Assembly (NCBI GenBank): GCA_025655455.1
Contig: JAHXIV010000013.1
Location: forward strand, 1-64,000
Source: a gamma proteobacterium symbiont of Taylorina sp.
GTDB taxonomy: Bacteria > Pseudomonadota > Gammaproteobacteria > GRL18
Length of the DNA: 64,000 nucleotides
Direction of reading: 5' to 3'
The notes beneath the pieces were generated by a model that was not told the DNA's origin, did not search any database, and was given only the letters and a program-made list of their open reading frames with translations. Below are positions 5,950 through 26,317 of the stretch, piece after piece. Position 1 is the stretch's first letter. Each line of letters starts with the position of its first letter. Position numbers and translations under genes: made by a program.

Positions 5950-6038
5950 CCTTAACCAAAAAAGTTTGGCTGAAATTATTTAAGTAATATTATAAATTAC
6001 TTAAAATGATTTTAGTTTAATTTTTTGTTACTCAAGAG
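5950..6038 (-). repeat. Dispersed repeat family R3, copy 1
   Basis: Read on the minus strand, 6038-6018 is identical over 21 bases to 17063-17083 (starts CTCTTGAGTAAC). The following roughly 50 bases remain similar, both forming a palindrome around ATTTTAAGT...ACTTAAA. The two copies lie in opposite orientation about 11 kb apart. Outer arms AAGTTTGGCTGAA (5962-5974) and its complement (6041-6053) enclose this copy. Confidence 0.65.
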
Positions 6039-6050
6039 CCTTCAGCCAAA

Positions 6051-6116
6051 CTTGAAATTATCCGCCATTGTTTTGGTCATATAAAATTTCAAATAAAATG
6101 GCTGGATAATTTCAAG
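6051..6116 (+). promoter_or_regulatory. Structured leader hairpin before the cold-shock-domain gene
   Basis: CTTGAAATTATCC (6051-6063) and its exact complement (6104-6116) would form a 13-bp stem, extended by CCAT/ATGG inside, ending 20 bases before the gene. It sits within an untranslated leader. Cold-shock mRNAs are known for long, structured, temperature-sensitive leaders; a role here is an inference. It could equally be a mobile palindromic repeat. Confidence 0.45.
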
Positions 6117-6136
6117 TTATATTAAGAGTTTTATAT

Positions 6137-6619: not shown

Positions 6620-6970
6620 TTGCCGGAACAGTCCATAGAGGTTGAATGCTCACATTGTCATGAGGCGGCTCATTATAAGCTGGGTCATGACAGTGATATT
6701 GATGAAGCCCTGACACATCTTAAAGGTAAAACACAGATTCAGATTAAGTCCATTATCAAGAACCATAAACTTGATAAGGCGGAATACGGCTATGCACTCT
6801 ATGCCTGTCCAAAGTGTCTCAGTCTCTACAACCCTTATGATGTCAGAGTTGAATATGATGAAATCATGCTATTTCAACCTTTTTATAAGTGTCAGCAATG
6901 TAATATTACCCTGACTAAAGCCAAACAGCCTTATACTGACTATATTTGTAAGGAATGTGGACAGAATTAA
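6620..6970 (+). CDS. Small zinc-ribbon protein with four CxxC pairs
   Basis: The 116-residue soluble protein begins at a TTG codon. The start is chosen because AAGGAGAG sits just upstream and no nearer ATG keeps the first Cys pair. Four CxxC pairs (CSHC, CPKC, CQQC, CKEC) could bind two zinc ions. No enzymatic motif is visible and I do not recognise the family. It follows the cold-shock-domain gene by 21 bases, so the two may form an operon, which hints at a nucleic-acid-related role. It ends six bases before the convergent frdB. Confidence 0.7.
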   Translation: MPEQSIEVECSHCHEAAHYKLGHDSDIDEALTHLKGKTQIQIKSIIKNHKLDKAEYGYALYACPKCLSLYNPYDVRVEYDEIMLFQPFYKCQQCNITLTKAKQPYTDYICKECGQN

Positions 6971-6975
6971 CTCTT

Positions 6976-7731
6976 TTACCCCTCGCAGGAGCAGGCTTTC
7001 TTCAGTCCAACTTCTAACATCTTACGCCTTAAATAAGCTATTTTAGATTGCAGAGGCAATTTTTTTGGACAGACGTCCTCACAACCTAATAAGGTCATGC
7101 AGCCGAAAACACCATCTTCATCACCCACCAGCTCATAATAATCATCTCCACTGCGTTCATCTCTGGGATCCAGCTGATAGCGTGTAATTTTATTCAAACC
7201 GACAGCCCCTGCAAATTCTTCTCTCATCTGAATAGTGCCGCATCCGGCAACACAGCATCCACATTCAATACATCGATCCAGCTCATAAATTTGTTCCGCT
7301 AATTCCGGCTCCATACGTGGCTCCAGACGGTTATAATCAGCGGCTTCATTTTGATGAATCCAGGCTTCAAGCCGTTCATTCATAGCGCGCATCCAGTTGC
7401 CGGTAAACACCGATAAATCACCAATTAATTCAAACACAGGCAGTGGTGCAAGAGAAATTTCAGCTTCCATTTTTGCTGTCAGAGTACTGCAGGCTAATCC
7501 TGGTTTACCATTGATGATCATGGCACAGCTCCCGCAAATCCCGGCACGACAGACAAAATCAAATTTTAAAGAAGCGTCATGATACTGACGAATATCATTT
7601 AAAGCAATAAACAATGTCATACCGGGTGCTTCTTCAATTTCAAAGCATTCAATACGCGGTTTATCACCCACAACATGCGGATCAAAGCGTAAAATACTGA
7701 TCTTTAATAAGCGCCCTTTTTCAATAATCAT
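6976..7731 (-). CDS. frdB: Fumarate reductase iron-sulfur subunit, Wolinella type
   Basis: About 251 residues from the ATG at 7731; the frame extends to 7788 but the family N-terminus (LLKISILRFDP) begins just after 7731. The protein carries the [2Fe-2S] site CRAGICGSC...C near residue 70, the [4Fe-4S] site CIECGCCVAGCG and the [3Fe-4S] site CMTLLGCEDVCP. It closely resembles remembered Wolinella FrdB (DRCIECGCC; DGVFGCMTLL). It passes electrons between FrdA and the di-haem FrdC. Unlike Wolinella, it is not next to frdA: about 9.4 kb with a type I secretion cassette intervene, so it needs its own promoter in 7732-8428. Confidence 0.92.
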   Translation of the reverse strand: MIIEKGRLLKISILRFDPHVVGDKPRIECFEIEEAPGMTLFIALNDIRQYHDASLKFDFVCRAGICGSCAMIINGKPGLACSTLTAKMEAEISLAPLPVFELIGDLSVFTGNWMRAMNERLEAWIHQNEAADYNRLEPRMEPELAEQIYELDRCIECGCCVAGCGTIQMREEFAGAVGLNKITRYQLDPRDERSGDDYYELVGDEDGVFGCMTLLGCEDVCPKKLPLQSKIAYLRRKMLEVGLKKACSCEG

Positions 7732-7923
7732 AAAATGATACTTACCATATTTTATTAAAATCAAAGTTTTTATTATTATCACAGTCACATAATAATAATT
7801 CTACGGTTTCATCAGGGGCATCAATTAATCGGAGAAGTTATATAACCACCTGAACTGTATAATATAGGATTTTACATTATTTTATTAATAATTAACTTTT
7901 ACAATAAGCAATAAGTCATTGAT

Positions 7924-8189
7924 TTATCCACCAACTGATTATTGTACCTAAAAAGTGAATATTAGTGATTAATTCTATATCTTTCATGTCAATAAGTAAA
8001 TTCAGCAAAATACATAAGTTATTGAATTAAAATATTTTTTGTTTCAAGAAAATATGTATGTACAAACTTTAAGCAAATAATATGTAAGCTAATAATAGCA
8101 CTATTTTGATACGGTTATTCAAACTTATTAACAAAGTTATCCACAGAATCTGTGGATGATTCATGCCCTTAGTTGTAACGTGTTGATAA
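7924..8189. other. Cluster of DnaA-box-like sites
   Basis: TTATCCACA at 8137-8145 is a perfect match to the bacterial DnaA box TTATNCACA. One-mismatch sites are TTATCCACC (7924-7932), TCATCCACA on the minus strand (8151-8159) and TTATCAACA on the minus strand (8181-8189). The flanking sequence is strongly AT-rich. None of the usual origin neighbours (dnaA, dnaN, mnmG, rpmH) is here. It may be a DnaA-regulated promoter, a relic of a mobile replicon, or chance in AT-rich DNA. Confidence 0.35.
8139..8157. promoter_or_regulatory. 19-bp perfect palindrome, possible operator
   Basis: ATCCACAGA and its complement TCTGTGGAT flank one central A. The dyad overlaps the two head-to-head DnaA-box-like sites and lies about 270 bases upstream of the TolC-like gene and 400 upstream of frdB. 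The symmetry suits a dimeric regulator, but no regulator gene is nearby. Confidence 0.4.
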
Positions 8190-8428
8190 CGTATTTTCGG
8201 ATAATTTACGCTTTCTCTATTAATATCTAAATCCCGCACTGAAAAAAATAAAAATGGCACAACATTTGCTTTTAATTATTTGACACTGGTTATTTAATAT
8301 ATAGTCCCACCAGACCCTTGCTCATATAATGAGTAACATTAAAGACAATTGCCATGCAGCCGATAAGGAAATTTATACAAGCATGGAATTTGACCTGGCC
8401 TGTTGAAAACAATATTTAAGAGCATTTT

Positions 8429-10132
8429 ATGAAAAATAAGCTTATTTTATCCCATTTATTGGCAGTATTTCATCGTTTTTATAAGTTGTATCTTATTGTC
8501 TATATGATTTTTGTATGTAGTACAGCCTATGGCTCTTACTTTACGCAAGAAATAACACAATTATTACAAACTCATCCGTCTTTATCATCCCAGCAATACT
8601 TAATTGAAGCCGCAGATGATGGTATTACAAAAGCAAAGTCTGGTTTTCTACCCAGCATTGATATTTTCAGTTCAATAGAGAAAGAAAAAACTAATCGATC
8701 TATTATTGGTAGTCAAAAGACGTATGATAGTAAAACAGCTGAATTAACCATTACACAAAATCTTTTTTCAGGTTATTCCGATGAAAACAAGACCAGTATT
8801 GCTGAATTGGAATCAAAAATTCAGTGGGTTATTTTTGATAAGGTTAAGCAAGATTTACTTTTATCAGCTATAAAATCATATATTAATATACTCAAACAAA
8901 CAAAACTGTTAGAAATTGCTGAAAATAACGAGTCAATTCTGGCAAGCCAACTGGCACTGGAAGAAGAACGTTTTAAACATGGCGCAGCGATAGAAGCTGA
9001 TGTACTGCAATCAAAAGTACGGCAACAATTTACCAAAGAGCGGAAAGTTTTATATTTTGAGGAATTAGAATTGGCAATTGCCAAATATATTGAAATTTTT
9101 TCTCATGCACCTGAATTAGAAAAAATGCAAAACATTAAAATACCTGAACAAAAAATACCTCAAACTTTATACGATGCCCTGGCACAAACCACAAAATCCA
9201 ATCCTGAACTCAATCAGTTCAGACTGGAAACAGAAAAAACAAAATTACAGATTTTTATTGAAAAAAGTGCATATTATCCTTCTATTAATCTTGTTGGGAA
9301 ATCTGAATGGTCTGATGGTGATGAAGGCTTTGATCGCTCAAAAAAAGATGCTTCAATTGGAATACAATTACAATGGAATTTGTTTAATGGTAAAAGAAAT
9401 AATGCCAATCTTAATATAGCAAGAAAAAACCATGCCTCAATTATTGAAGACTATATTATTGCAGAAAACAAATATAAAGAGCTGACACATTCTAATTGGA
9501 AAGAATATAATATTTCCAAGAAACGAGTTGTTATCCTTAAAAATGCAGCAGATATGTCCCGACTTTTATTTGAACAACGCAAAGAATTAAGGGCTGCTGG
9601 AGAAAATACAGCTAAAAACGTACTGGATGCCAGGAGTGAGTACTTTAATTCACAAACACGACATACATCAACAAAATATAATAATCAAATAAAGGCTGTC
9701 GAATTATTGTATGCATGTGGCTTACTAACTCCCGAATTAATCATTAGTGAGTTAAAATCGAAAACAATTGAACAGAAAAAATCAAAATATTTTCAACAAG
9801 AATCACCAAGGTTAAGCTCTTTTCCACCATTAACCGACCGTGATTGGCTGCTTCAACAATCACCAGAGAATTTTGTTATTCAGTTAATTTCAGTAAGAAA
9901 TAAAAATTCTATTGACGGACTTATAGATAAAACGAATGTGAGTGACAGATTTGCGGTTTATACGATTAAGAATAAAGGTAATGACATATATGTGATGGTT
10001 TATGGTTCTTTTTCAGATAAAAAATCTGCAAAAGAAGCCATTAAAAGTTTACCGATTAATCATAACAAATATCATCCATGGGTTAGGGAAGTCAGCATGA
10101 TTCAACATGAAATAAATAGAGGTTATAAGTAG
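8429..10132 (+). CDS. TolC-family outer-membrane channel with C-terminal SPOR domain
   Basis: The 567-residue protein has a signal peptide (cleavage likely after AYG near residue 35) and an outer-membrane efflux protein region to about residue 440. It shows the two-fold repeat of helical hairpins and strands typical of TolC/AprF/LapE (VLQSKVRQQF; NVLDARSEYFNSQ). After a polar linker, residues about 480-555 match a SPOR domain (WLLQQSPENFVIQL, then YVMVYGSFSDKKSAKEAI). SPOR domains bind denuded peptidoglycan, so the channel may be recruited to sites of cell-wall remodelling. It is the outer-membrane part of the type I exporter encoded about 3.7 kb downstream. It is convergent with the acidic repeat gene, 12 bases between stops. 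Confidence 0.88.
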   Translation: MKNKLILSHLLAVFHRFYKLYLIVYMIFVCSTAYGSYFTQEITQLLQTHPSLSSQQYLIEAADDGITKAKSGFLPSIDIFSSIEKEKTNRSIIGSQKTYDSKTAELTITQNLFSGYSDENKTSIAELESKIQWVIFDKVKQDLLLSAIKSYINILKQTKLLEIAENNESILASQLALEEERFKHGAAIEADVLQSKVRQQFTKERKVLYFEELELAIAKYIEIFSHAPELEKMQNIKIPEQKIPQTLYDALAQTTKSNPELNQFRLETEKTKLQIFIEKSAYYPSINLVGKSEWSDGDEGFDRSKKDASIGIQLQWNLFNGKRNNANLNIARKNHASIIEDYIIAENKYKELTHSNWKEYNISKKRVVILKNAADMSRLLFEQRKELRAAGENTAKNVLDARSEYFNSQTRHTSTKYNNQIKAVELLYACGLLTPELIISELKSKTIEQKKSKYFQQESPRLSSFPPLTDRDWLLQQSPENFVIQLISVRNKNSIDGLIDKTNVSDRFAVYTIKNKGNDIYVMVYGSFSDKKSAKEAIKSLPINHNKYHPWVREVSMIQHEINRGYK

Positions 10133-10144
10133 TAATTGTGGTTT

Positions 10145-13100
10145 TTATAACAAAGAGTCTTCATTGTTATAATCATCCCCCATTGGATCATCAAATACGC
10201 CTTGTTCATCATAATTAAATTCAGGTTCCATATCTTCATCTGATATTTCAGAAAATTCAAAGCCCGATATTTCCAGTTGTGCAATTTCAAATTCATCTGA
10301 GTTTTTATCGTTTTTACTGTGGCTAATGACTTTATAACCTGGGTGGTTTGTATTATTGCTAGTATTACCACCGGAATTCTCTGCATTATTATGGAACTCG
10401 GAGCCGCCGGGTGCATTTTGGTCACCATTGCCAAACCCATTATTTTCATATTTATGATGATTATCCTGTCTATCTTCATCAGCTAATGAATTCTCAAAAT
10501 CGGGGGACAACTGCTCATTGATTTCATTATCGTTTTTACCACCTGGATGTGAACCCTTACCATTACCACCGGCATTCTCAGCATTGTTATTAAATTCAGA
10601 ACCACCTGGCGCATCCTGATCACCATTGCCAAACCCATTATTTTCATATTTATGATCAGATATATCTATATTGACCGGAGTGGAGGAATCATCATCATGA
10701 TTATCTTCTTTAAAGTCATCAAGAATGGTATCGTTATTGCTATCCTTAATGGTGTTAAATGTATTGTCTATGTTATTGTTAACATCAGGATCTATGTCTG
10801 ATAATAATTCAAGCACATCATCACTGGTCATTAGTGCTGTTATATCGAGTTCATCATCAGAACCATCAATTGAATCTATTTTTTCTTCATATTGAACATC
10901 TGTTATTGTAGAGTCGAACTTAATATCTTCAATAACAGGTTCAGTAGAAGAGTTTGATTCACTGCTATCTTTATTATCAGCAGGTGTTCGCTGTTCAGGT
11001 TTCTCTTCAGTCGTTAAGCTGTCTTCTAATTCGATAGTAAGCTCTGATTCATTATCACTTTTTTTATTTTCACTGGGCTCTGATTCAATTTCAGTTTCTG
11101 TAGTGATGACTTCTATTGTTTCGATATTAATAACACGTTCAAACTTACCACCAGAGCAGGAATCATAGCCTCCTGGACACATGATCAGGTATTCACCCTC
11201 ATCCAGGATTTCATGGTCATTGTCTTTAATCGGTTCTGGTGCTACAGCAATTTCTTCATCGACTACTTCATTGATCACTTCAGTCGCTTGTTCTTCTGAT
11301 TCTTTTTCAGGAGAAGTGTCTTCCACCAATTCCGATTTATTTTCAGGATTAACAATAAAGTCTTCTTTTTCCTGTTCAATTATTGTTTCAGGAATATCAG
11401 GTTCAAGTTCAGGTTTTTTATCTTCAATATCCAGCTTTTCATCGACATTATCTATATCCGATTTTTCCTGAGCTATCTCAACAATTGTTTCTGTCTCATC
11501 CTCTTTTTCTGCTGGAACAGTTTCAACAACTTCAATATCAGCTTTTAATGGCTTTTCATAGCTAACGGTATCAACAGGTTCATTGGTATTATCTGCACCA
11601 ATAATTATTTCCTGATGAATAACCTTAACAGTCTCAATAGTAGTAACAGACTCTTCTGTGGAACCAAGGCAATTAAAATCTGAAATTATTTTATCCCTAA
11701 TGATATCATCAGATTCAACAGATTCTTCGAACTCACTAATCATTTCAACAGTATCAGCTATTTCATTCTCAGGTGCCTGTTCGTCTTCAGTCTCAATACT
11801 CTCATCAGATTCAACAGCTTCTTCGAACTCACTAATCACTTCAACAGTATCAACTATTTCGTTCTCAGTTTCCTGTTTTATCTCAGTCTCAATATTCGCA
11901 TCGGATTCAACAACTTCTTCAATCTCACTAATCACTTCAACAGTATCAACTATTTCGTTCTTTATCTCCTCTTCAATTTCATTGATATTAGATGTTATGG
12001 TATCACTTAATTCTTCTGATTTGCCATCATGAAGAGGATGATATCCTCCAGCATTTCCAATATCTTTATCATTACCCTGATTTCCTGAGGTTCCTGAAAT
12101 CAGGTTATTATTTTCATCCGATTTTCCGGCACCAGCAGCAGGATTAAAAGAAGCATTATCCTGTATATCTGTTTTAATGGTCTCATGCTTATTATCTGAC
12201 TGAGGAAGCTTTTCAGATAATTCCACCTTGATTTTTTCAGCATTGGGTATTTCAGAGCCAATGATGCCGACATTGGCTTCCTGATGTTCATTTAACTCAT
12301 TATTATTAGACTGACCACCAGCATTACCAACAAATTTATCATTACCCTGATTTCCTGAGGTTCCTGAAATCAGGTTATCATTTTCATCCGACTTTCCAGC
12401 ACCAGCAGCAGGATTAAAAGAAACATTGTCCTGGATATCTGCTTTAATGGTCTCATGGTTATTATTTGACTGAGAAAGCTTTTCAGATAATTTCACCGTG
12501 ATTTTTTCAGCATTTGGCATTTCAGCCTCAATGATGCTGGTAGTGGCTTCCTGATGAGCATTTAACTCATTATTTTTGGAGTGACCGACAGCATTACCAA
12601 CAGGTTTATCATTATTCTGACTTTCAACACTACTAGATTTTTCATTGTTATTTTCATCAGACCTGCCTGTTTCTTCTGTTTTACTGCTATCATAAATTTT
12701 TTGCGTGTGTTCATTTTTGTCAGTACTTGTTTGCTTTATGCTCTCTGTATAGGCATCTGATTGGCGGTTATAGTTTGATTCATCATTATCCTGATTGATT
12801 TTTTCATTTTTATTTTTTGCTTCAGTTTCAGACTTTGTCTCAAGCTTTGTGTACATTGAAGACATTGAGATATGGGCAGATTCATAGCCCGCACCTGGCT
12901 CTGTTTCATTGATTCTTCTATTACCTTTTGTGATAATTGTTTCTTTATCACTTTTATTTACATCAGTTTTTTTAGTATCTGCAGCAAAATCAGATTTGAA
13001 CAGTGTTTTGTCTATTGTTGCCTCATTATCATCTTTGCTGTTAGGGTTAAAATGATCACTATTTCCATCAGCATTACCAACAAATTTTAAGTTGTTTCCC

Positions 13101-13426
13101 TGATTGCCTCCTGAACCGGAAACAACATTATCATTTTCATCAGATTTACCTGCACCAGCAGCTATACCTTCTCCTTCTCCTGGTAATAAAACGCTAGAGA
13201 ACAAATCATCATTATTTTGGCTTTGTAGATTTATGGTAGATTTAACATTTTTTTGTTGTAATAATTCATTATCAGATAAACGGTTTTCAAAAACCTGAGT
13301 GGGGTTTAGAATATCAGGATGTTTATGAGGGTCATCATCCCTTATGATGTCAAATTTATCAAACTTAATCCTGTTAGAATCATCAAATTTGTCTTGTTTA
13401 TAATTATCAATGTTTCTTTTGGCCAC
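10145..13426 (-). CDS. Very acidic repeat protein, probable type I secretion substrate
   Basis: 1093 residues, begun at a GTG preceded by AGGAG. No signal peptide and no membrane helix; extremely rich in Asp, Glu, Asn and Ser. Three repeat types occur in order: Gly/Asn blocks with GAGKSDEN...SGNQGN (starting near residues 91, 337 and 426); three copies of an acidic unit with DTVEVISEFEE (about 484-570); and two copies of KYENNGFGNGDQ.APGGS...NNAENAGG (about 925-1015), a motif I associate with large calcium-binding and type I-secreted proteins. The C-terminus is acidic with hydrophobic residues (EFEIAQLEISGFEFSE), as in type I secretion signals. No RTX nonapeptide run is seen. Function unknown; perhaps an adhesin or extracellular matrix protein. 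Confidence 0.7.
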   Translation of the reverse strand: MAKRNIDNYKQDKFDDSNRIKFDKFDIIRDDDPHKHPDILNPTQVFENRLSDNELLQQKNVKSTINLQSQNNDDLFSSVLLPGEGEGIAAGAGKSDENDNVVSGSGGNQGNNLKFVGNADGNSDHFNPNSKDDNEATIDKTLFKSDFAADTKKTDVNKSDKETIITKGNRRINETEPGAGYESAHISMSSMYTKLETKSETEAKNKNEKINQDNDESNYNRQSDAYTESIKQTSTDKNEHTQKIYDSSKTEETGRSDENNNEKSSSVESQNNDKPVGNAVGHSKNNELNAHQEATTSIIEAEMPNAEKITVKLSEKLSQSNNNHETIKADIQDNVSFNPAAGAGKSDENDNLISGTSGNQGNDKFVGNAGGQSNNNELNEHQEANVGIIGSEIPNAEKIKVELSEKLPQSDNKHETIKTDIQDNASFNPAAGAGKSDENNNLISGTSGNQGNDKDIGNAGGYHPLHDGKSEELSDTITSNINEIEEEIKNEIVDTVEVISEIEEVVESDANIETEIKQETENEIVDTVEVISEFEEAVESDESIETEDEQAPENEIADTVEMISEFEESVESDDIIRDKIISDFNCLGSTEESVTTIETVKVIHQEIIIGADNTNEPVDTVSYEKPLKADIEVVETVPAEKEDETETIVEIAQEKSDIDNVDEKLDIEDKKPELEPDIPETIIEQEKEDFIVNPENKSELVEDTSPEKESEEQATEVINEVVDEEIAVAPEPIKDNDHEILDEGEYLIMCPGGYDSCSGGKFERVINIETIEVITTETEIESEPSENKKSDNESELTIELEDSLTTEEKPEQRTPADNKDSSESNSSTEPVIEDIKFDSTITDVQYEEKIDSIDGSDDELDITALMTSDDVLELLSDIDPDVNNNIDNTFNTIKDSNNDTILDDFKEDNHDDDSSTPVNIDISDHKYENNGFGNGDQDAPGGSEFNNNAENAGGNGKGSHPGGKNDNEINEQLSPDFENSLADEDRQDNHHKYENNGFGNGDQNAPGGSEFHNNAENSGGNTSNNTNHPGYKVISHSKNDKNSDEFEIAQLEISGFEFSEISDEDMEPEFNYDEQGVFDDPMGDDYNNEDSLL

Positions 13427-13498
13427 CTCAATATACTCCTAGTGTTTCATTAGTAAATAATATTTAACTTGCCCTTTTATGCTAAAGATTCACCTAAA

Positions 13499-13684
13499 AT
13501 GACTTATTTTGATGACTTGATGCAGAATCTGCAAAACTTGCGAATTCATATTTTATTGTCAATAATGTATATGATTATCGCAATTGTCTTTACTAACTTA
13601 ATAATAACTCTGGTTCAATGTGAAATTGAACAACACATTGATATCCATTTGACAGCTCTTGAGCTTGATACTAGCATACATTAA
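13499..13684 (+). CDS. Possible small single-span membrane protein
   Basis: 61 residues from the ATG at 13499 (a TTG at 13469 would add ten). One strong hydrophobic segment (about residues 17-40, LLSIMYMIIAIVFTNLII) is flanked by polar ends. It lies alone between the divergent cargo and ABC-transporter genes. There is no clear ribosome site and no family I recognise, so it may be a chance frame in promoter DNA. Confidence 0.3.
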   Translation: MTYFDDLMQNLQNLRIHILLSIMYMIIAIVFTNLIITLVQCEIEQHIDIHLTALELDTSIH

Positions 13685-13802
13685 AAATTTTTCTGTTAAA
13701 CTGATCACATTTTTTTAATTAATGTAATTACTTATCACTGATAAGATAACTTCACTTTTGTTTTGAGTAAGAATACTTATAAATCATGATAAACAGGGTT
13801 AA

Positions 13803-15599
13803 ATGAAACGACATAACAACAAAACACTTAACAAGAATCAGATAGAGTTTGCAGATATCATCCTTCAGGCAAAGCCTGCCTTTCTGGCAGTTGCATTGTT
13901 CAGTCTGTTTTTTAATCTGTTAATGTTAACAACTCCTCTTTATATGCTGCAGGTTTTTGATCGTGTTTTATCCAGTCATAGCCACAACACATTGCTATGG
14001 CTGACAGTTATGGCTATTATTGCGTTTATTTTTATGTCACTTCTGGACGTGATACGAAATCGAATATTGGGTGGTATTGGTATTTGGCTTGATCGCTCTT
14101 TGGGTACTATTCTGGTTCGTTCCAGTTTACATAAAGCGGCTGTACATACTTCACGAGGACTACCATCCAGCAGTCTGCGTGATTTATCAATGATCAGAAA
14201 TTTTCTGAGCGGTACCGGCACGTTGGCTCTCATTGATTCACCCTGGACACCTCTTTTTGTCATCATTATTTTTCTACTACATCCCTGGCTAGGGATGTTA
14301 ACCTTAATGGGAATATTAACACTTATTTTATTGACGATATTTGGCGAATTAAATGCACGTAAGCGTTTGAACCAAAGTAGTTCGAAATTATCCCAGCTTT
14401 ATGCGACCATCGATTCGGCAGCCGATACTGCTGATGCCCTGGTCAGTATGGGAGCACTTGAGCGTATTATTTCTCAGTGGAAAAAAAAGAACCATGTATT
14501 ACTGAATAATACACAACAAGTGAATGGAAAGTTGGCTTCAGCTGTTGCTGTTGGGAAATTTGTTCGCTTAAGTTTACAAATATTAATAATGGCAGTGGGT
14601 GCTTTATTGGTTATTAATGAAGAACTGACACCAGGAGGTATGTTAGCTTCCTCAATTTTATTAACCAGAGCGTTGGCACCGATTGAGCAACTCATTGGTG
14701 CCTGGCGTGCTTTTGTTGGTAGTCGTGAAGCCATAACTCGTATTGTCAAACAGCTTAATATGGTACAGGAACACCATCGAAACGTTGAAATGCCAAAACC
14801 TCAAGGATATTTTGAAGCGAATAAAATATCATTTGCTCTACCATCAGAGCAGCGTTTTTTATTTAGAGACATTTCATTTAAGCTTAAACCTGGAGAAGTG
14901 CTGGGAATAGTGGGTCCTTCCGGTACCGGAAAAAGTACTCTTGCAAGGATTTTAGTTGGTTTAATTAGCCCTACCACAGGTCATGCCAGAGTCGATGGTA
15001 GTGATATTGCTCATTGGTCACTGGATAAAATGGGACAGTACATTGGTTATCTGCCACAGGGATTTGAATTGTTTGATGGAACAATTAGACAAAATATCTC
15101 ACGATTCAGTGATTGTGCTATTGAAGATGTGATTCATATTTCAAAATTAGCAGGTATTCATGATTTTATTGTACGCTTACCAAAGGGCTATGAAACAAAA
15201 ATCATCAAAAACAGTGTATTTCTATCAGGAGGACAGCAACAACGCATTGCATTGGCAAGAGCAATATTTGGCTATCCTTCAATCATAGTGATGGATGAGC
15301 CCAATGCAAACCTTGACCCTTCTGGTGAAAAAGCCTTGTTAAAAGCAATCGACATACTCAAACGCAAAGGTAAAACCATTATCTTAATCGCACACCGTTC
15401 TAATATTCTACGCAGTGCTGATCAATTATTGATGATGAATCATCAGGGTGGAAAACTTCTGACCAGGAAGAATACCGCAGAGCAGATCGATCAGACGCTG
15501 GGGGTATCCTATCAATACATACAAAATATTATAAAAGATATAGCATTGACTGAGGCTGATAATAGCAATAAGTCTCAAAGGTCGGGACATCATGAGTAA
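13803..15599 (+). CDS. Type I secretion ABC permease/ATPase, PrtD/AprD type
   Basis: The 598-residue half-transporter has an N-terminal membrane domain (about residues 20-320, with TTPLYMLQVFDRVLSSHS typical of the PrtD/HasD group) and a C-terminal ATPase: Walker A GPSGTGKST, signature LSGGQQQRIALARA, Walker B IIVMDEP and switch His in AHRS. It lacks an N-terminal C39 peptidase or C39-like domain, so cargo is expected to be exported via a C-terminal signal without leader cleavage. AGGG precedes the ATG. Its last eight bases overlap the adaptor gene. It energises export together with the adjacent adaptor and the TolC-SPOR channel. Confidence 0.93.
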   Translation: MKRHNNKTLNKNQIEFADIILQAKPAFLAVALFSLFFNLLMLTTPLYMLQVFDRVLSSHSHNTLLWLTVMAIIAFIFMSLLDVIRNRILGGIGIWLDRSLGTILVRSSLHKAAVHTSRGLPSSSLRDLSMIRNFLSGTGTLALIDSPWTPLFVIIIFLLHPWLGMLTLMGILTLILLTIFGELNARKRLNQSSSKLSQLYATIDSAADTADALVSMGALERIISQWKKKNHVLLNNTQQVNGKLASAVAVGKFVRLSLQILIMAVGALLVINEELTPGGMLASSILLTRALAPIEQLIGAWRAFVGSREAITRIVKQLNMVQEHHRNVEMPKPQGYFEANKISFALPSEQRFLFRDISFKLKPGEVLGIVGPSGTGKSTLARILVGLISPTTGHARVDGSDIAHWSLDKMGQYIGYLPQGFELFDGTIRQNISRFSDCAIEDVIHISKLAGIHDFIVRLPKGYETKIIKNSVFLSGGQQQRIALARAIFGYPSIIVMDEPNANLDPSGEKALLKAIDILKRKGKTIILIAHRSNILRSADQLLMMNHQGGKLLTRKNTAEQIDQTLGVSYQYIQNIIKDIALTEADNSNKSQRSGHHE

Positions 15600-16899
15600 T
15601 GAAATCATAGAACAGATTGGAAAACCTGATGTAAATAACTGGATTCTCGCCGGCTTTGCAGTATTATTGTTTTTTCTCTTAGTTTTAGTAGGTTGGGCCG
15701 GCTTTACCACCATTGATGCAGCCACTATTACTCAAGGCTCAATTACTATAAAAGACAAGCATAAAAAAATCCAGCATCTGGAAGGAGGAATTGCTAGTGA
15801 AATTTATGTTAAGGAGCACAGTGAAGTAAAAAAAGGGCAAATCTTAATGACCTTAAATCAGACCAAAGCCCGGGCATTACTCGATCTGGTAACAAATCAA
15901 TATCTCACTGCTTTAGCCCTGGAAGCAAGATTAATGGCTGAGAAAAAAGCACAAAGTAATATAAAATGGCCTGAAACATTGGATCAAAACCACCCTCAAG
16001 CACAAGTTGCCATGGAGGAACAGGAAGGTATCTTTGTAGAACGATTAACAACGCATACAGGACAAATAAAATTACTGGAAAATAAAGTACGTCAAACTAA
16101 AAAAGCCTTTGGTGGTACGAAAAAACAATATAATTCATTAAACAAACAATATCGCTTAATTCTCAGAGAAGTAGAAAATGCACGCATACTCACTCGCAAG
16201 AAATTGGCGACAAAACAAAAATTAATGGGGCTCGAGCGTGAAGCACTTCAAATTGACGAACGTTTACGTTCTTTGGAAACACACATTTCAACTTATCAAT
16301 ATGAAATTGATGACGGTAACCTGAAAATATCTAATCTCAAAAATAAACACCATAATGAAATTGTGGAACTACAGCACAAAGCTCGACTTAATCTATCTGA
16401 TCTGACACAAAAACTTAAAGCGGCCCAGGATGTCCTGGAACGAACCAAAATCATAGCCCCCCAAAAAGGCATCGTTATCAACTTGGCTATTACTACACTG
16501 CGTAGTGTGATCAAGCCGGGTGAAACTATCATGGAAATTGTTCCAACCGATGCAACTTATATTATTGAAACACGAATTGATCCCAAAGATATTGATGTCG
16601 TGAAAAAGGGAGCAAAGACACAGATCCGTTTAACATCCTATAAACAACGGATTACACCAACTCTTTATGGAACTGTGCTTCATGTCTCGGCTGACACATT
16701 GTTTGACAAAAAGACAGGTGATAAGTATTACAGTGTCATTATTGAAATTGATAGCATTTCATTAAAAAAATACCCAGGAATTAATCTTTATCCAGGTATG
16801 CCTGCTGATGTCATGATCATTTCAGATTCCCGAACTGTTATTCAATACCTTTTTCAACCTGTATTTGAAAGTTTTAACCAGGCATTTAGAGAAAAATAA
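15592..16899 (+). CDS. Type I secretion membrane-fusion adaptor, PrtE/HlyD type
   Basis: 435 residues: a short cytoplasmic N-terminus, one membrane helix (about 18-38), the first half of a lipoyl/barrel-sandwich domain (KHKKIQHLEGGIASEIYV), a long coiled-coil hairpin (about 95-290), the second half (KIIAPQKGIVINL) and a beta-barrel domain (IVPTDATYIIETRIDPKDID). These are family hallmarks of type I HlyD adaptors. It bridges the ABC exporter to the outer-membrane channel. It overlaps the ABC gene by eight bases, showing translational coupling. Confidence 0.93.
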   Translation: MSNEIIEQIGKPDVNNWILAGFAVLLFFLLVLVGWAGFTTIDAATITQGSITIKDKHKKIQHLEGGIASEIYVKEHSEVKKGQILMTLNQTKARALLDLVTNQYLTALALEARLMAEKKAQSNIKWPETLDQNHPQAQVAMEEQEGIFVERLTTHTGQIKLLENKVRQTKKAFGGTKKQYNSLNKQYRLILREVENARILTRKKLATKQKLMGLEREALQIDERLRSLETHISTYQYEIDDGNLKISNLKNKHHNEIVELQHKARLNLSDLTQKLKAAQDVLERTKIIAPQKGIVINLAITTLRSVIKPGETIMEIVPTDATYIIETRIDPKDIDVVKKGAKTQIRLTSYKQRITPTLYGTVLHVSADTLFDKKTGDKYYSVIIEIDSISLKKYPGINLYPGMPADVMIISDSRTVIQYLFQPVFESFNQAFREK

Positions 16900-17062
16900 G
16901 CGGATGATGTAAAATCTCATCAGAAAATTTCAAAACTGTACGAAAACCTTAATTGTCTCTACCTGGTGTGAGTATTAGCGATTATCATTTAACTTTATTT
17001 GCAAATCATCGTGCTAATCTTTAATAAACACCCGTTTTCAATTCCCATGATTAAATCCTTCA

Positions 17063-17143
17063 CTCTTGAGTAACAAAAAATTATCACAAATGATTTTAAG
17101 TTATTTTTATATTACTTAAAATCATTCGTGACAATTTTTTTGG
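17063..17143 (+). repeat. Dispersed repeat family R3, copy 2, overlapping the 3' end of frdA
   Basis: Starts with CTCTTGAGTAACAAAAAATT, shared with copy 1 at 6038-6018. It then forms the palindrome ATGATTTTAAGT...ACTTAAAATCAT (17091-17126). The frdA stop codon at 17122-17124 lies inside the element, so the last codons of frdA appear to be repeat-derived. The palindrome could also serve as a terminator or mRNA-stabilising hairpin for frdCA. Confidence 0.65.
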
Positions 17144-19158
17144 CTGTGGGCAATTTCAACCTCAAAACGTTCATTCAGACGCTCATTTTTAGCACGATAC
17201 TTATGCGGTAGTAATTGCTGATATGACATGAGCTGATTTTGTATTTCAAATCGATCTTTATCCACTGACTGAGAACGTATATCATCAATGAGCTTTTGTT
17301 TCAGCTGTGTTTGCGGATGATGGATGGTCATATCTTTGCCATAACCTCTAAACCCGGGTGGCAGTTCCATTTCATTGATATCAATGTCTTCATAGCCAAC
17401 AACCGGCAGAGACTGTTCTTCATCTGGCCAGCTCATAATGGTTCTTTTCAGCCATTCTTTATCATTACGTTCCGGATAATCTTCACGCGAATGTGCACCA
17501 CGGCTTTCCTTGCGTAATAAGGCACCATAAGCCACTGTTAAGGCAATTTTGATCATACGCTGAACACGATAAGCATTCACCAGTGCCGGGTTTGCAGCAG
17601 GTGATTTGGATTTCTTAACCTCAATATTTTTACTTCTCAACAGTAATTGTTGTAATTCATTTACGGCAGACTGCAAGTCAGTTTCATTGCGAAAGATACC
17701 GACTTTTTCCATTAGAATTTTCTCCATCGAGTCACGTAAATCATAGGCATCTTCACCATTTTCTTTACTGAGCAGGCGTTCTAATTTCTCCCTTTCGTGT
17801 GCAATAAAACGCTCAATAACATCACTGCTTATATCTACTTTACTTGCTTCACTTGCACAATAATCTGCAATATACTCAGCCACCAGCATACCAGCCACAA
17901 CCGTTTCACTGACAGAATTACCTCCCAGACGATTAAAGCCATGTATATCCCAGCAGGCAGCTTCACCACAAGAATAAAGACCTTTTAATGTTTGTGATTC
18001 ACCATTATATTTGGTACGTATCCCACCCATAGAATAATGCTGTGTCGGTCTTACCGGAATCCACTCTTCAGCCGGATCAATACCAAGGAAATTTTCACAG
18101 ATTTCTTTGACCTCGCGCAGATTTTTTTCTATATGCTCACGTCCCAGCAGAGTAATATCCAGCCATAGATGGTCGCCATAGCGTGACGGCACCCCCTTAC
18201 CTTTACGCATGTGTTCAATCATACGCCGCGAAACTACATCCCGCGAAGCCAGTTCCTTTTTTTCAGGCTCATAATCCGGCATAAAACGATAGCCATCGAC
18301 ATCTCTTAGTACTCCACCATCCCCTCTGCAGCCCTCAGTTGTCAATATGCCGACAGGAACAATAGCTGTAGGGTGAAATTGTATGGCTTCCATATTGCCC
18401 AAGGTAGCAACACCTGTTTCAAGCGCAATTGCCTGCCCCATCCCCTGACAAATAATGGCATTGGTTGAAACACGATAAATTCTTCCATAACCGCCACTTG
18501 CAATGGTCGTTGCCTTGGCAATATAGGCGACTAATTCACCCGTCATAAGATTTCTTACCACTGCACCATAACAACGCGACTGCTGCTCTGAATCCATAGC
18601 ATGGATCAAAGCAATCGCCTCCATTCGTTCATGCACTTCAATTTTTTGTTTTTGTGCCTCATTATCCATTGCATACAACATACTATGCCCCGTACCATCA
18701 GAGGTATAACAGGTACGCCATTTCTTAGTCCCGCCAAAATCACGGGCAGTAATTAAACCATGTGCCTCATCCGCTTCTGTAATTGTCACTTTTTCAGCAT
18801 TCATGATGGCCTGTCGCTCACCACGTTTAACACGACTCCAGGGTACCCCCCAATTAGCCAGTTCACGAATGGCTTTAGGTGCGGTATTGACAAACATGCG
18901 CACTACTTTTTGATCGGCTCCCCAGTCACTGCCTTTGATGGTATCCTCAAAATGAATATCTTCATTATCTCCTTCTCCCATAATGGAATTCGCCAGACTG
19001 GCCTGCATCCCACCTTGAGCCGCAGCAGAATGAGACCGTTTGGGCGGCACAAGACTCAGAACGATGACATCATTGCCTCGTGCTTTTACACCGGTGGCAG
19101 TACGTAAACCCGCCAGACCACCACCAATAATCAGTACATCCGTATAGATAATCTTCAT
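17122..19158 (-). CDS. frdA: Fumarate reductase flavoprotein subunit, Wolinella type
   Basis: 678 residues. FAD-binding [12 protein letters not shown] lies at the N-terminus and [14 protein letters not shown] contains the His that carries covalent FAD in this family. The active-site segments QFHPT, GCRGDGG and [12 protein letters not shown] are present, as are HYSMGGIRT and [12 protein letters not shown]. It catalyses fumarate/succinate interconversion on the membrane face with FrdB. The body is strikingly close to remembered Wolinella FrdA to the segment KYRAKNERL; the tail beyond it (about 15 residues, ending SQKNCHE) is extra and coded within a dispersed repeat. The start overlaps the frdC stop by four bases (ATGA). 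Orientation and order are frdC-frdA; frdB is detached. Confidence 0.95.
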
Positions 19159-19892
19159 GGTTGATAGCGCTCCCCAACTTTGTCAACATGCTGATAACCA
19201 ATGAACATGTAGGTACCCAAAGACATCAGGCTGATACTGGTATAAAGGATAATGCTGATGATCATCAGTTTTTTTAACTGCCTGCGAGTTTGGCCGGGCT
19301 GCTCAAATATTCCCCACTTTAGTGCCAGACGATATAAACCAATAAAAGCATGCAGGATTACACTGAGCATAAGAATTAAATAAAGCGGCCACATCCATTC
19401 ACTATAAATACGATCAGCTGAAGCATAGGGACCGATTTGATCAGGCCTGCTCATCATCATGTACAGGTGGACTGAAGCCAGAAAAAACATGATAAATCCC
19501 GTTATAACCTGATACAGCCATAATTTGCTATCTGCATGTTTAAGATAATAAGCATGACTGATAATAATACGATATTGCCGGTAGCTGGATGGAAACTTTC
19601 GCAAAGCAGTCAAAGCATGAACAATCAAAATAAGAAAAATAGCGGCTGCCAGAAAAGAAATAATACCAGGATAATATTCACCAAAAAAATAATAGCCCTC
19701 AAAAAATTTGGTGACTGTCAGCATTGCATCTTTACTGATTAAAATACTGGCTTCAAATATTAAGTGAGCCATAATAAAAATTGCTAAAACAAAGCCTGTC
19801 ACACTTTGAATCAAATCCAGTCTTGCCGGCATACAGCTGATAAAACCACAGCGATAGGCGGCAATACTTTTTTGTTCTCGATCATGTCTCAT
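19155..19892 (-). CDS. frdC: Fumarate reductase di-haem cytochrome b subunit
   Basis: 245 residues with five hydrophobic segments. Four His at 43, 92, 142 and 181 fall in [24 protein letters not shown] and [15 protein letters not shown]. These correspond, shifted by one, to the haem ligands 44, 93, 143 and 182 of Wolinella FrdC. Glu65 matches the quinol-site Glu66 of Wolinella. The residue aligned with Glu180 of Wolinella is Ile179. It anchors FrdAB in the membrane and exchanges electrons with quinone. The last bases overlap frdA. The start is taken at the first Met, before KSIAAYR. Confidence 0.93.
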
Positions 19893-19958
19893 TTCATTTT
19901 CAAGCCTGTCAGGTTATAATCACTTTTCTCAATTCTATTGTAATCAAAAATTTTTCTT

Positions 19959-20540
19959 ATGCAAATAACAGGTCTTATTTTAGCTGGTGGTCGTTCCAGT
20001 CGCATGGAGGGTCATGATAAAGGTTTATTGACTTTAGTTGATAAAAGCATGATTGAACATGTGATTGAAAAACTCAAACCTCAGGTCGATCAAATTTTAA
20101 TCAGTGCTAATCGCCATATTGAGCAATACCAGTCATTTGGCTATGAAGTATTACTGGATGAGTATGATGATTTCAGGGGACCATTAGCAGGAATGGTCAG
20201 AGGTCTATCTCATTCTAACAGTGAGTATTTACTTACAGTTCCCTGTGATGGTCCCCTATTGCCCATTGACCTTGCTGTAAAACTGTTAGATTCAGCACAA
20301 AAAAAATCTACCAAGGCAGTATTTGTCTTTGATGGGAAGTATAAGCAGCCCACTTATAACCTGCTGCATAGTGATCTATTAAAGTCTATTGAACAATCAC
20401 TGGAACACCAGGAACATAAACTGGGCAAATGGTTGTTGGATAATGGAGCGTGTGCAGTAGACTTTTCAGCTCAAAAAAATGCTTTTCTGAATGTCAATAC
20501 ACCGAAAGATTTACAGCTATTAGCCGAGGCTTTGCAGTAA
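19959..20540 (+). CDS. mobA: Molybdenum cofactor guanylyltransferase
   Basis: 193 residues, matching family length. The N-terminal nucleotide-binding loop LILAGGRSSRMEGHDKG is diagnostic. Later segments are FRGPLAGMVRGL, LLTVPCDGPLLP and NVNTPKDL. It transfers GMP to molybdopterin to give the bis-MGD cofactor of DMSO-reductase-family enzymes (nitrate reductase, formate dehydrogenase and similar). It is divergent from frdC across a 66-base spacer and convergent with the synthase-like gene (12-base gap). No mobB or molybdoenzyme is visible nearby. Confidence 0.92.
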   Translation: MQITGLILAGGRSSRMEGHDKGLLTLVDKSMIEHVIEKLKPQVDQILISANRHIEQYQSFGYEVLLDEYDDFRGPLAGMVRGLSHSNSEYLLTVPCDGPLLPIDLAVKLLDSAQKKSTKAVFVFDGKYKQPTYNLLHSDLLKSIEQSLEHQEHKLGKWLLDNGACAVDFSAQKNAFLNVNTPKDLQLLAEALQ

Positions 20541-24361: not shown

Positions 24362-26317
24362 ATGATTAATATTCTTAAAAAAAATATTTTATTTTTCCTT
24401 TTATTGAGCAGCCTATTCGTATACATACTATTGGCAATTACAGCACCAGCTAACGCTGCTGAATGGCCAAAGAAAAAATACACTATTATTTACAAAGTAA
24501 CTTCTCACATGTGGGATACCAAACAAAAAAAGGTTGTTCGTACCACAAAGAAAGTCCTGGATGATATACATTATGCTTTTGATGTCTGGCAAGATGCATC
24601 AAATGGAACTTTACGTTTTACTTTCGGTGGTTTTGGAAAAGCGGGCTACGATGGCTATAACCAAATCCCCTATGATGGTGATATATATCTGGTTTTAAAT
24701 GGCAGATACAACGATCATGGTGAAATGGCAAATGCTCGCTATAGTGGAACAATTCCTGATGATTACAAAAAAGCAGGCATTTTTTTTAATAAACAGTCAG
24801 GAAGCCTTCATCACAGCATCATTACACATGAAATTGGCCATGTACTTGGTCTTGAACATGCTGCCACAAATGCTTCGATCATGTATAGCGGTAAGCGATC
24901 TGGAGGAAGTACTTTAATTGATTATCTTGCAGAACAGGATGTAATCAATCTTCAATATTTATGGGATCCTGATAACAAAAACATATTTACTATGTCTGGC
25001 TCTATCCAAACCAGTCACAAACACAAAATGGCATTAGTATTTGCCGTCAATACTTTTAACGGCCATACATATTCCACACGATCTGATCACAAAGGCAATT
25101 ACACCATCGTGCTAGGACAGCCTGGTCGCTACAAAGTTGTTGCAAAATCGGTTGAAGTGTCTGCTGATTTAAAGGCACTAAAAAATAAGCAAGGCATTCC
25201 ACAAAGTGCAAGCTGGTATGTTGATCAAAGTGTAAGTTCAACGAACCCTGCGAAAGCATTGCGTACCTATATGTTTAGGAGCCGCCCTCATACAAAGGGA
25301 GCCATTATACAAATGATCGACCAGCCGGCTCCATATAAGCTGACACGTGCATTGTCATCACAGGATAATTTTGAACTGGGATATTTACATCCCGGTGATG
25401 ATGTGATGCTTGGATTGCCAGAGGTAAATAACTTAGAGTCAATCGAAAGTTTTGGCACCTCACCAGATTATCAATTTTTAGCTGTGCCCAAGAAATATAA
25501 AGGTCAGTATCAAGTCAAGTTACATATTGCTGATAATGCGACTGAAGGTGAGCGCCTGGCCATTGTGCGAGACACTCAGGGACGCAGCCACATCGGCCTT
25601 ATTGGTATACATATTTCACATCAACAAGCAAAACCAAAACTGATAAGTGGTAAGGCACTCATAGCACAATTATCTTTTGACCATAACTTAAATGACTCAG
25701 GTCCATACAAGATGCAGGGACAAGTAAATGGTGATGAGGTTTCTCTGCGCAAAGGAATCAAGGGGAATGGCCTTTTTGTCGGGGGTAGCGAAGACTGGCT
25801 TGATCTTCCACTACCAGACCAACTTTTACTCGAAAGTGGATTCACAAGTGAATTTTGGTTCCGGCGTGAAAATTGGTCTAATCCCTATATAGGGGGAGCC
25901 GGATTCCAGACATTGGTTGCTATCACATCAAGTTTTGTGCAGGATATTACAGCGGAGGGCTGCGCTCTAACTCCCCCCTGGGCTCTGGTCTCTACGGTAT
26001 CCCACCGAAATCTAAAAAACAGGGAATCAGAAACGGTACGTGCATATACTAAACCCGATATAATACAGCCAAATATATGGCTCCATGCTGCAACTGTATA
26101 TGACCCTTTTGAATCGAGTTTATCCCTCTATCTTGATGGTAAACTTGTTGAAACCATTTGGGCCGTTCCTGCACCTTTATTTTCCATACGTCATATTCGC
26201 TTTGGCACCTGGTTCAAGGCAAATCAGGCATTTCGTGGAATGTTAGATGAATTCAAGTTATACAACTATGCGCGTACGGCACAAGAGATAAAAATCGCGG
26301 CACAACCACCTGATTAA
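24362..26317 (+). CDS. Secreted matrixin-like zinc metalloprotease with LamG-like domain
   Basis: 651 residues. A signal peptide (hydrophobic core 9-28, likely cleavage after NAA near 33) is followed by a protease domain. The zinc motif HEIGHVLGLEH (156-166) and Met-turn ASIMYSG (Met174) fit the metzincin/matrixin group. A middle section (about 210-290) resembles a carboxypeptidase-regulatory-like beta-sandwich. Residues about 440-645 look like a concanavalin/LamG domain (LSFDHNLNDSGPY, then SGFTSEFWFRR and SLYLDGKLVETIW). It should act outside the cytoplasm, possibly on matrix or glycoprotein. No type I signal or sorting motif is seen. Confidence 0.85.
   Translation: MINILKKNILFFLLLSSLFVYILLAITAPANAAEWPKKKYTIIYKVTSHMWDTKQKKVVRTTKKVLDDIHYAFDVWQDASNGTLRFTFGGFGKAGYDGYNQIPYDGDIYLVLNGRYNDHGEMANARYSGTIPDDYKKAGIFFNKQSGSLHHSIITHEIGHVLGLEHAATNASIMYSGKRSGGSTLIDYLAEQDVINLQYLWDPDNKNIFTMSGSIQTSHKHKMALVFAVNTFNGHTYSTRSDHKGNYTIVLGQPGRYKVVAKSVEVSADLKALKNKQGIPQSASWYVDQSVSSTNPAKALRTYMFRSRPHTKGAIIQMIDQPAPYKLTRALSSQDNFELGYLHPGDDVMLGLPEVNNLESIESFGTSPDYQFLAVPKKYKGQYQVKLHIADNATEGERLAIVRDTQGRSHIGLIGIHISHQQAKPKLISGKALIAQLSFDHNLNDSGPYKMQGQVNGDEVSLRKGIKGNGLFVGGSEDWLDLPLPDQLLLESGFTSEFWFRRENWSNPYIGGAGFQTLVAITSSFVQDITAEGCALTPPWALVSTVSHRNLKNRESETVRAYTKPDIIQPNIWLHAATVYDPFESSLSLYLDGKLVETIWAVPAPLFSIRHIRFGTWFKANQAFRGMLDEFKLYNYARTAQEIKIAAQPPD

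Follow-up and report, generated by a model that had tools for sequence, protein, structure and literature searches.

We analyzed a stretch of 64,000 nucleotides (the window) from the genome of a gammaproteobacterial symbiont of Taylorina sp. (assembly GCA_025655455.1, contig JAHXIV010000013.1), in which the fumarate reductase gene frdB is separated from frdC and frdA by genes for type I secretion. Comparison with related genomes makes it likely that a contiguous frdCAB operon of the Campylobacterota type was interrupted by an acquired type I secretion cassette, whose entry, at the frdB start, would have duplicated the front of that gene. We observed that relatives carry the three genes contiguously, that no close counterparts of the cassette were found there, that a stub of frdB persists behind frdA, and that dispersed repeats occur at the locus. 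A 245-kb contig opens with the window; the draft genome that it belongs to comprises 4.5 Mb in 104 contigs.

The genes for the cytochrome b subunit (frdC, positions 19155-19892, minus strand) and the flavoprotein subunit (frdA, 17122-19158, minus strand) overlap by 4 bases, and intact frdB (6976-7731, minus strand) lies ∼9.4 kb past frdA on the same strand, with the order frdC-frdA-frdB kept; this layout agrees with what an earlier note on this DNA had described. Each product exceeded the specific NCBIfam equivalog cutoff for Campylobacterota-type frdCAB (FrdC, 291.8 bits against PRK13553, cutoff of 187; FrdA, 1142.7 bits against PRK08626, cutoff of 663; FrdB, 398 bits against PRK13552, cutoff of 264). 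The open reading frame of frdB opens at GTG 7788, but FrdB most likely starts at ATG 7731, which gives 251 amino acids, since the inspected relatives start or align only from about that position. Cysteines are present at positions 61, 66, 69, 81, 154, 157, 160, 164, 211, 217, and 221, a set that we take to fit the ligand pattern of three iron-sulfur clusters, and the genome contains a single frdB of the PRK13552 type. What is absent at this locus is the contiguity of the three genes, which is a trait of the usual operon and not of the enzyme.

Family matches for the four genes lying between frdB and frdA were in line with the earlier identification of a TolC-like channel, an acidic repeat protein, a PrtD-type exporter, and a PrtE-type adaptor reading in mixed directions. 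The outer membrane channel (8429-10132, plus strand) clearly matched Pfam OEP (146.9 bits) and carries a C-terminal SPOR domain (31.5 bits), and its score against TIGR01844 (193.3 bits) was under the cutoff of 225.15. The genes for the PrtD-type ABC exporter (13803-15599, plus strand; TIGR01842, 589.3 bits, cutoff of 510.15) and the HlyD/PrtE-type periplasmic adaptor (15592-16899, plus strand; TIGR01843, 359.4 bits, cutoff of 208.65) overlap, and the exporter gene is separated from the channel gene by the opposed gene for the repeat protein (10145-13426, minus strand). Three of the four genes run opposite to frd. The repeat protein (1,093 amino acids; pI 4.1) contains 269 D/E residues versus 87 K/R residues, matched no Pfam or NCBIfam family at an E value of ≤0.001, and lacks RTX nonapeptides, since GGxGxD and GxGxD each gave 0 matches in it. 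As judged from families and neighborhood, it is plausible that the secretion genes form an exporter with the repeat protein as presumed substrate. An ordinary counterpart of this cassette is located elsewhere in a congener (G007, L183:5159-11444), where the gene for an RTX protein with 14 GGxGxD motifs stands directly before those for a PrtD-type exporter (39% identity) and an adaptor.

In order to compare the locus with relatives, we used a sample of 16 genomes of the genus, including the one that holds the window; 11 of them are ≥90% complete and ≤5% contaminated. An frdB of this type (E ≤ 1e-120) was found in nine genomes, again including our own, six had only distant matches (∼30%), and one had none. 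In all seven congeners in which the junction can be read (G002, G003, G006, G007, G008, G014, and G015), frdB lies directly behind frdA without the cassette, which is the arrangement that the earlier note had suggested looking for; the contig of the eighth congener with frdB, G001, begins inside the gene, and its junction is unreadable. Among 29 database loci, 7 of which are contigs of the congeners as judged by length, frdA and frdB were adjacent (match ends within 150 bases) in 28, the 29th being the cut G001 contig. The situations that the note had regarded as contradicting an insertion were not seen: the genome has no second frdB of this type, and none of the relatives seen has frdB apart from frdA. 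In the window, mobA lies 66 bases from frdC in divergent orientation; G015 likewise has mobA beside frdC in opposed orientation, 1.7 kb off, with a contiguous frdCAB, and its locus is a near-orthologous empty site. The genus-wide cassette search covered the exporter, the repeat protein, and the channel; several of the 15 other genomes are incomplete. In this search no close counterpart of the three was found: at an E value of ≤1e-5 the repeat protein matched nothing but itself in the 16 genomes, and the best other matches of the exporter and the channel had 42% and 24% identity, respectively. Two records (L026 and L030), labeled Sulfurimonadaceae, contain two convergent fumarate reductase sets arranged tail to tail, the second set being 46 to 60% identical to the subunits of the window.

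Behind frdA, where the relatives begin frdB, the window contains a stub of the frdB start (17013-17048, minus strand; MGIENGCLLKIS versus MSIEKGRLLKIS in G002), which consists of twelve codons including the start and is preceded by a purine-rich stretch. When both strands of the window were searched with the first 36 bases of G002 frdB, intact frdB matched at 33 of 36 positions, the stub at 29, and the next place at 22. With the corresponding probe from our own frdB, the stub matched at 28 of 36 positions and the next place in the window at 24. The stub thus diverges more from the intact starts than these diverge from each other, as expected for a decaying copy. Local alignment of the stub with G002 frdB was equaled by none of 300 shuffles, and in a control with 200 shuffles the stub region scored 52 against our own frdB (shuffle maximum, 46) and 59 against G002 (shuffle maximum, 47). 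In the 300-shuffle test, our own frdB was entered 15 bases short, and 23 shuffles reached the stub score; the 36-base probe test used the right start. The stub did not stand out in 300 shuffles against G003, G006, and G014, given without their start codons, and when the 200-shuffle control was run with permissive gap costs, the stub region was not above the best shuffle for our own frdB or G002. Behind the stub, 13 of 14 bases match a conserved stretch of frdB, but this hint of a longer remnant was not significant: 52 of 300 shuffles reached it against our own frdB, and in an anchored test with four sequences, our own included, between 4 and 39 of 60 shuffles did so.

On the intact side, similarity opens at the frdB start codon, upstream of which come 180 bases of unrecognized origin, a dispersed repeat of ∼245 bases, and tolC; no remains of frdA were found before intact frdB, where scores resembled those of shuffles. 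With a stub and an intact gene, the front of frdB is present twice, so the insertion either duplicated it or came after its duplication. The claim of an insertion at the frdA-frdB junction thus holds with an amendment, since the adjacency in relatives argues for it and the site would be the start of frdB, with the gene front duplicated. The stub, a finding beyond the earlier note, indicates that the insertion was not clean.

A palindromic dispersed repeat (17063-17153) sits between frdA and the stub and provides the last frdA residues and stop codon, as seen by aligning the C terminus to relatives. It gave 60 match rows in its own genome at an E value of ≤0.1, a count that includes the repeat itself and both strands of the palindrome. 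Its 30-nucleotide arms are 90% complementary, and its predicted RNA fold has an energy of −30 kcal/mol, versus a mean of −8 for shuffled sequences (z, −9.7). This near-perfect long hairpin is a possible terminator, not listed by the terminator scan, and could stop or hinder frdCA transcripts. Further copies of this ∼90-bp family occur at 5979-6118 in the window and at many other sites of its genome, and G002, G003, and G015 have them as well; some stand in tandem, as on contig C1 of G000 (∼96.2 to 96.5 kb). The second dispersed repeat (7912-8157, ∼245 bp), between tolC and frdB, has four further copies of >200 bp in its own genome, three in G002, and others in the genus; it was matched in 13 of the 16 genomes at an E value of ≤1e-10, in some over ∼45 to 60 bases only. 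A conserved stretch, which includes TTATCCACAG and a short hairpin, forms its end, and an Rfam search of positions 1 to 26000, which include this repeat, gave no match at the gathering threshold. In the searches made, neither of the two dispersed repeats matched the other, and they do not flank the cassette as a matching pair. A short reading frame before frdB had no match in a Pfam search.

Given that the hairpin could stop or hinder frdCA transcripts and that, of the four genes past it, three are oriented against frd, a promoter of its own is most likely for frdB, as the earlier note had presumed. The candidate sites just upstream of frdB are weak, with only 9 of 12 consensus bases, and therefore we do not claim a promoter from them. 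A scan of positions 6900 to 20100 gave 66 sites versus 50.8 (standard deviation, 6.6) in shuffled sequences; the excess is modest, and the region is AT rich. The enzyme is probably still produced, its subunits coming from two transcripts.

In phylogenetic trees, FrdA and FrdB of the window each paired with G002 (support of 100/98 and 99/89, respectively), suggesting that frdB is native. Accordingly, we judged replacement by a foreign frdB unlikely. At the DNA level, however, frdB of the window was slightly closer to G015 (82.0% identity) than to G002 (79.1%), the reverse of frdA (78.5% and 80.7%, respectively). The eight FrdA rows of the genus formed one group (98/99) that lies among rows of Campylobacterota, from which the frd operon was therefore probably gained, whereas in the FrdB tree the rows of the genus and of Campylobacterota were not resolved. 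Both trees were midpoint rooted and gave long-branch warnings, and the row labels come from draft genomes.

Together, these results outline a possible course of events. Acquired DNA with the cassette would have entered the frdB start of a contiguous frdCAB in the lineage of the window genome. On entry, the beginning of frdB would have been duplicated, so that a stub of at least twelve codons stayed behind frdA and one full frdB, with a different upstream region before it, came to lie past the cassette. Decay of the stub would have followed, and the palindromic repeat would have settled at the end of frdA, which now takes its stop codon and a strong hairpin from it. With frdB transcribed separately, the three subunits may still assemble. 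We infer a single entry of the cassette and a duplication of the frdB front that fits three routes, namely, site-specific integration, a single crossover with a partial frdB, or insertion after a local duplication of frdB.

Several results weigh against this reconstruction. We found no donor DNA carrying the cassette: all 435 matching plasmid records had <60% identity (best among those listed, 42.2%), the 24 genomes of the order gave no match besides our own at an E value of ≤1e-138, and in 369 genomes drawn from the class, with up to 3 and 4 candidates scored in each, neither the exporter (E ≤ 1e-145) nor the adaptor (E ≤ 1e-90) had a further match. Arrival of the cassette as one unit, as the earlier note had it, is thus plausible but unproven. 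The nearest relatives are incomplete (G002, 76%; G015, 71%) and could carry the cassette unseen elsewhere, so its absence applies to the frdA-frdB junction and not to whole genomes. Gene order around frd is poorly conserved within the genus, and the window, G002, and G015 all differ downstream of frdB, so a rearrangement may have occurred on that side. The stub matched the G015 start at only 22 of 36 positions and was at chance level against G015 and G007, both entered with their true start codons (in the 200-shuffle control, 34 against G015 versus a shuffle maximum of 49), and it gave no significant match beyond ∼36 bases. Finally, Pfam and NCBIfam searches identified no integrase or recombinase in the four genes that the two copies of the frdB front enclose.

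A more specific proposal would see in the cassette what is left of an integrative element with the frdB front as its attachment site, an element that supplied the gene with a substitute front and with other upstream DNA. We regard this as unlikely; if true, the iron-sulfur subunit would have been uncoupled from its operon and placed under the control of the element. It is also rather improbable that a duplication or relocation of frdB, which put it beside the gene at 6620-6970, came first and was followed by loss of the native copy, the secretion genes arriving separately or by rearrangement. A stub persisting at the old site is what the loss of a redundant copy would leave, and the gene at 6620-6970 is not beside frdB on the contig ends of G002 and G015 that we read. 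However, such a course takes more steps, the downstream neighbor is not demonstrably new given the poor synteny, and frdB stands apart from frdA in no relative seen. A misassembly joining two unrelated stretches around the frd genes might be suspected, as the draft is split into 104 contigs and is rich in dispersed repeats, including one where frdA ends, but it is highly improbable: the contig spans 245 kb, the genome has one frdB of this type, and the stub lies physically between frdA and the adaptor gene hlyD, where a simple misjoin would not create it. We retain insertion of the cassette at the frdB start as the likely explanation.

Two other features of the window lie outside the cassette. 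An integrase-like frame (80-1012; 310 amino acids) has a match to an arm-binding domain, with no catalytic domain listed, and positions 24362-26317, ∼7.5 kb beyond the cassette, encode a protein with matrixin-like metallopeptidase and laminin-G-like domains.

The locus combines an operon cut in two without visible loss of a subunit, an empty site in relatives, and a legible scar, in a gammaproteobacterial genus in which a Campylobacterota-type fumarate reductase is established. It lets one ask whether a complex normally made from one transcript tolerates the separate transcription of one subunit. In a full-text search of the literature, no title or abstract opening among the matches listed reported such a split of the operon.

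The cassette resembles the PrtD/PrtE/TolC systems that export proteases and lipases in that its exporter and adaptor score above the cutoffs, their genes overlap, and a channel gene is nearby. It differs in that the channel carries a SPOR domain and is split from the exporter by the opposed gene for the repeat protein, and in that RTX motifs are missing from the acidic, repetitive protein presumed to be its substrate; RTX repeats are common, not obligatory, in type I secretion substrates. Some integrative elements, SXT in prfC being an example, insert into the 5′ end of a gene and restore its front with a copy of their own. Here too a direct repeat of a gene front flanks the insert (36 bases of the frdB front, at 17048 and 7731), but the copies are identical at only 28 of 36 positions, the cassette has no integrase, and there is no evidence of excision. 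The laterally acquired tfrAB of gammaproteobacteria (PMC6315080), encoding a putative thiol:fumarate reductase, is likewise a fumarate reductase gained from a distant clade, but it lies inside a reductive tricarboxylic acid cycle gene cluster, whereas the window has frdCAB. The closest likeness of the three subunits is to the Campylobacterota-type frdCAB of Wolinella, with all scores above the equivalog cutoffs and gene order and strand kept; the difference is that frdB lies 9.4 kb away and a stub occupies its old place. The event is thus of a known kind; the locus preserves a clear fossil of an insertion, not a novel system, and its scar is unusually legible.

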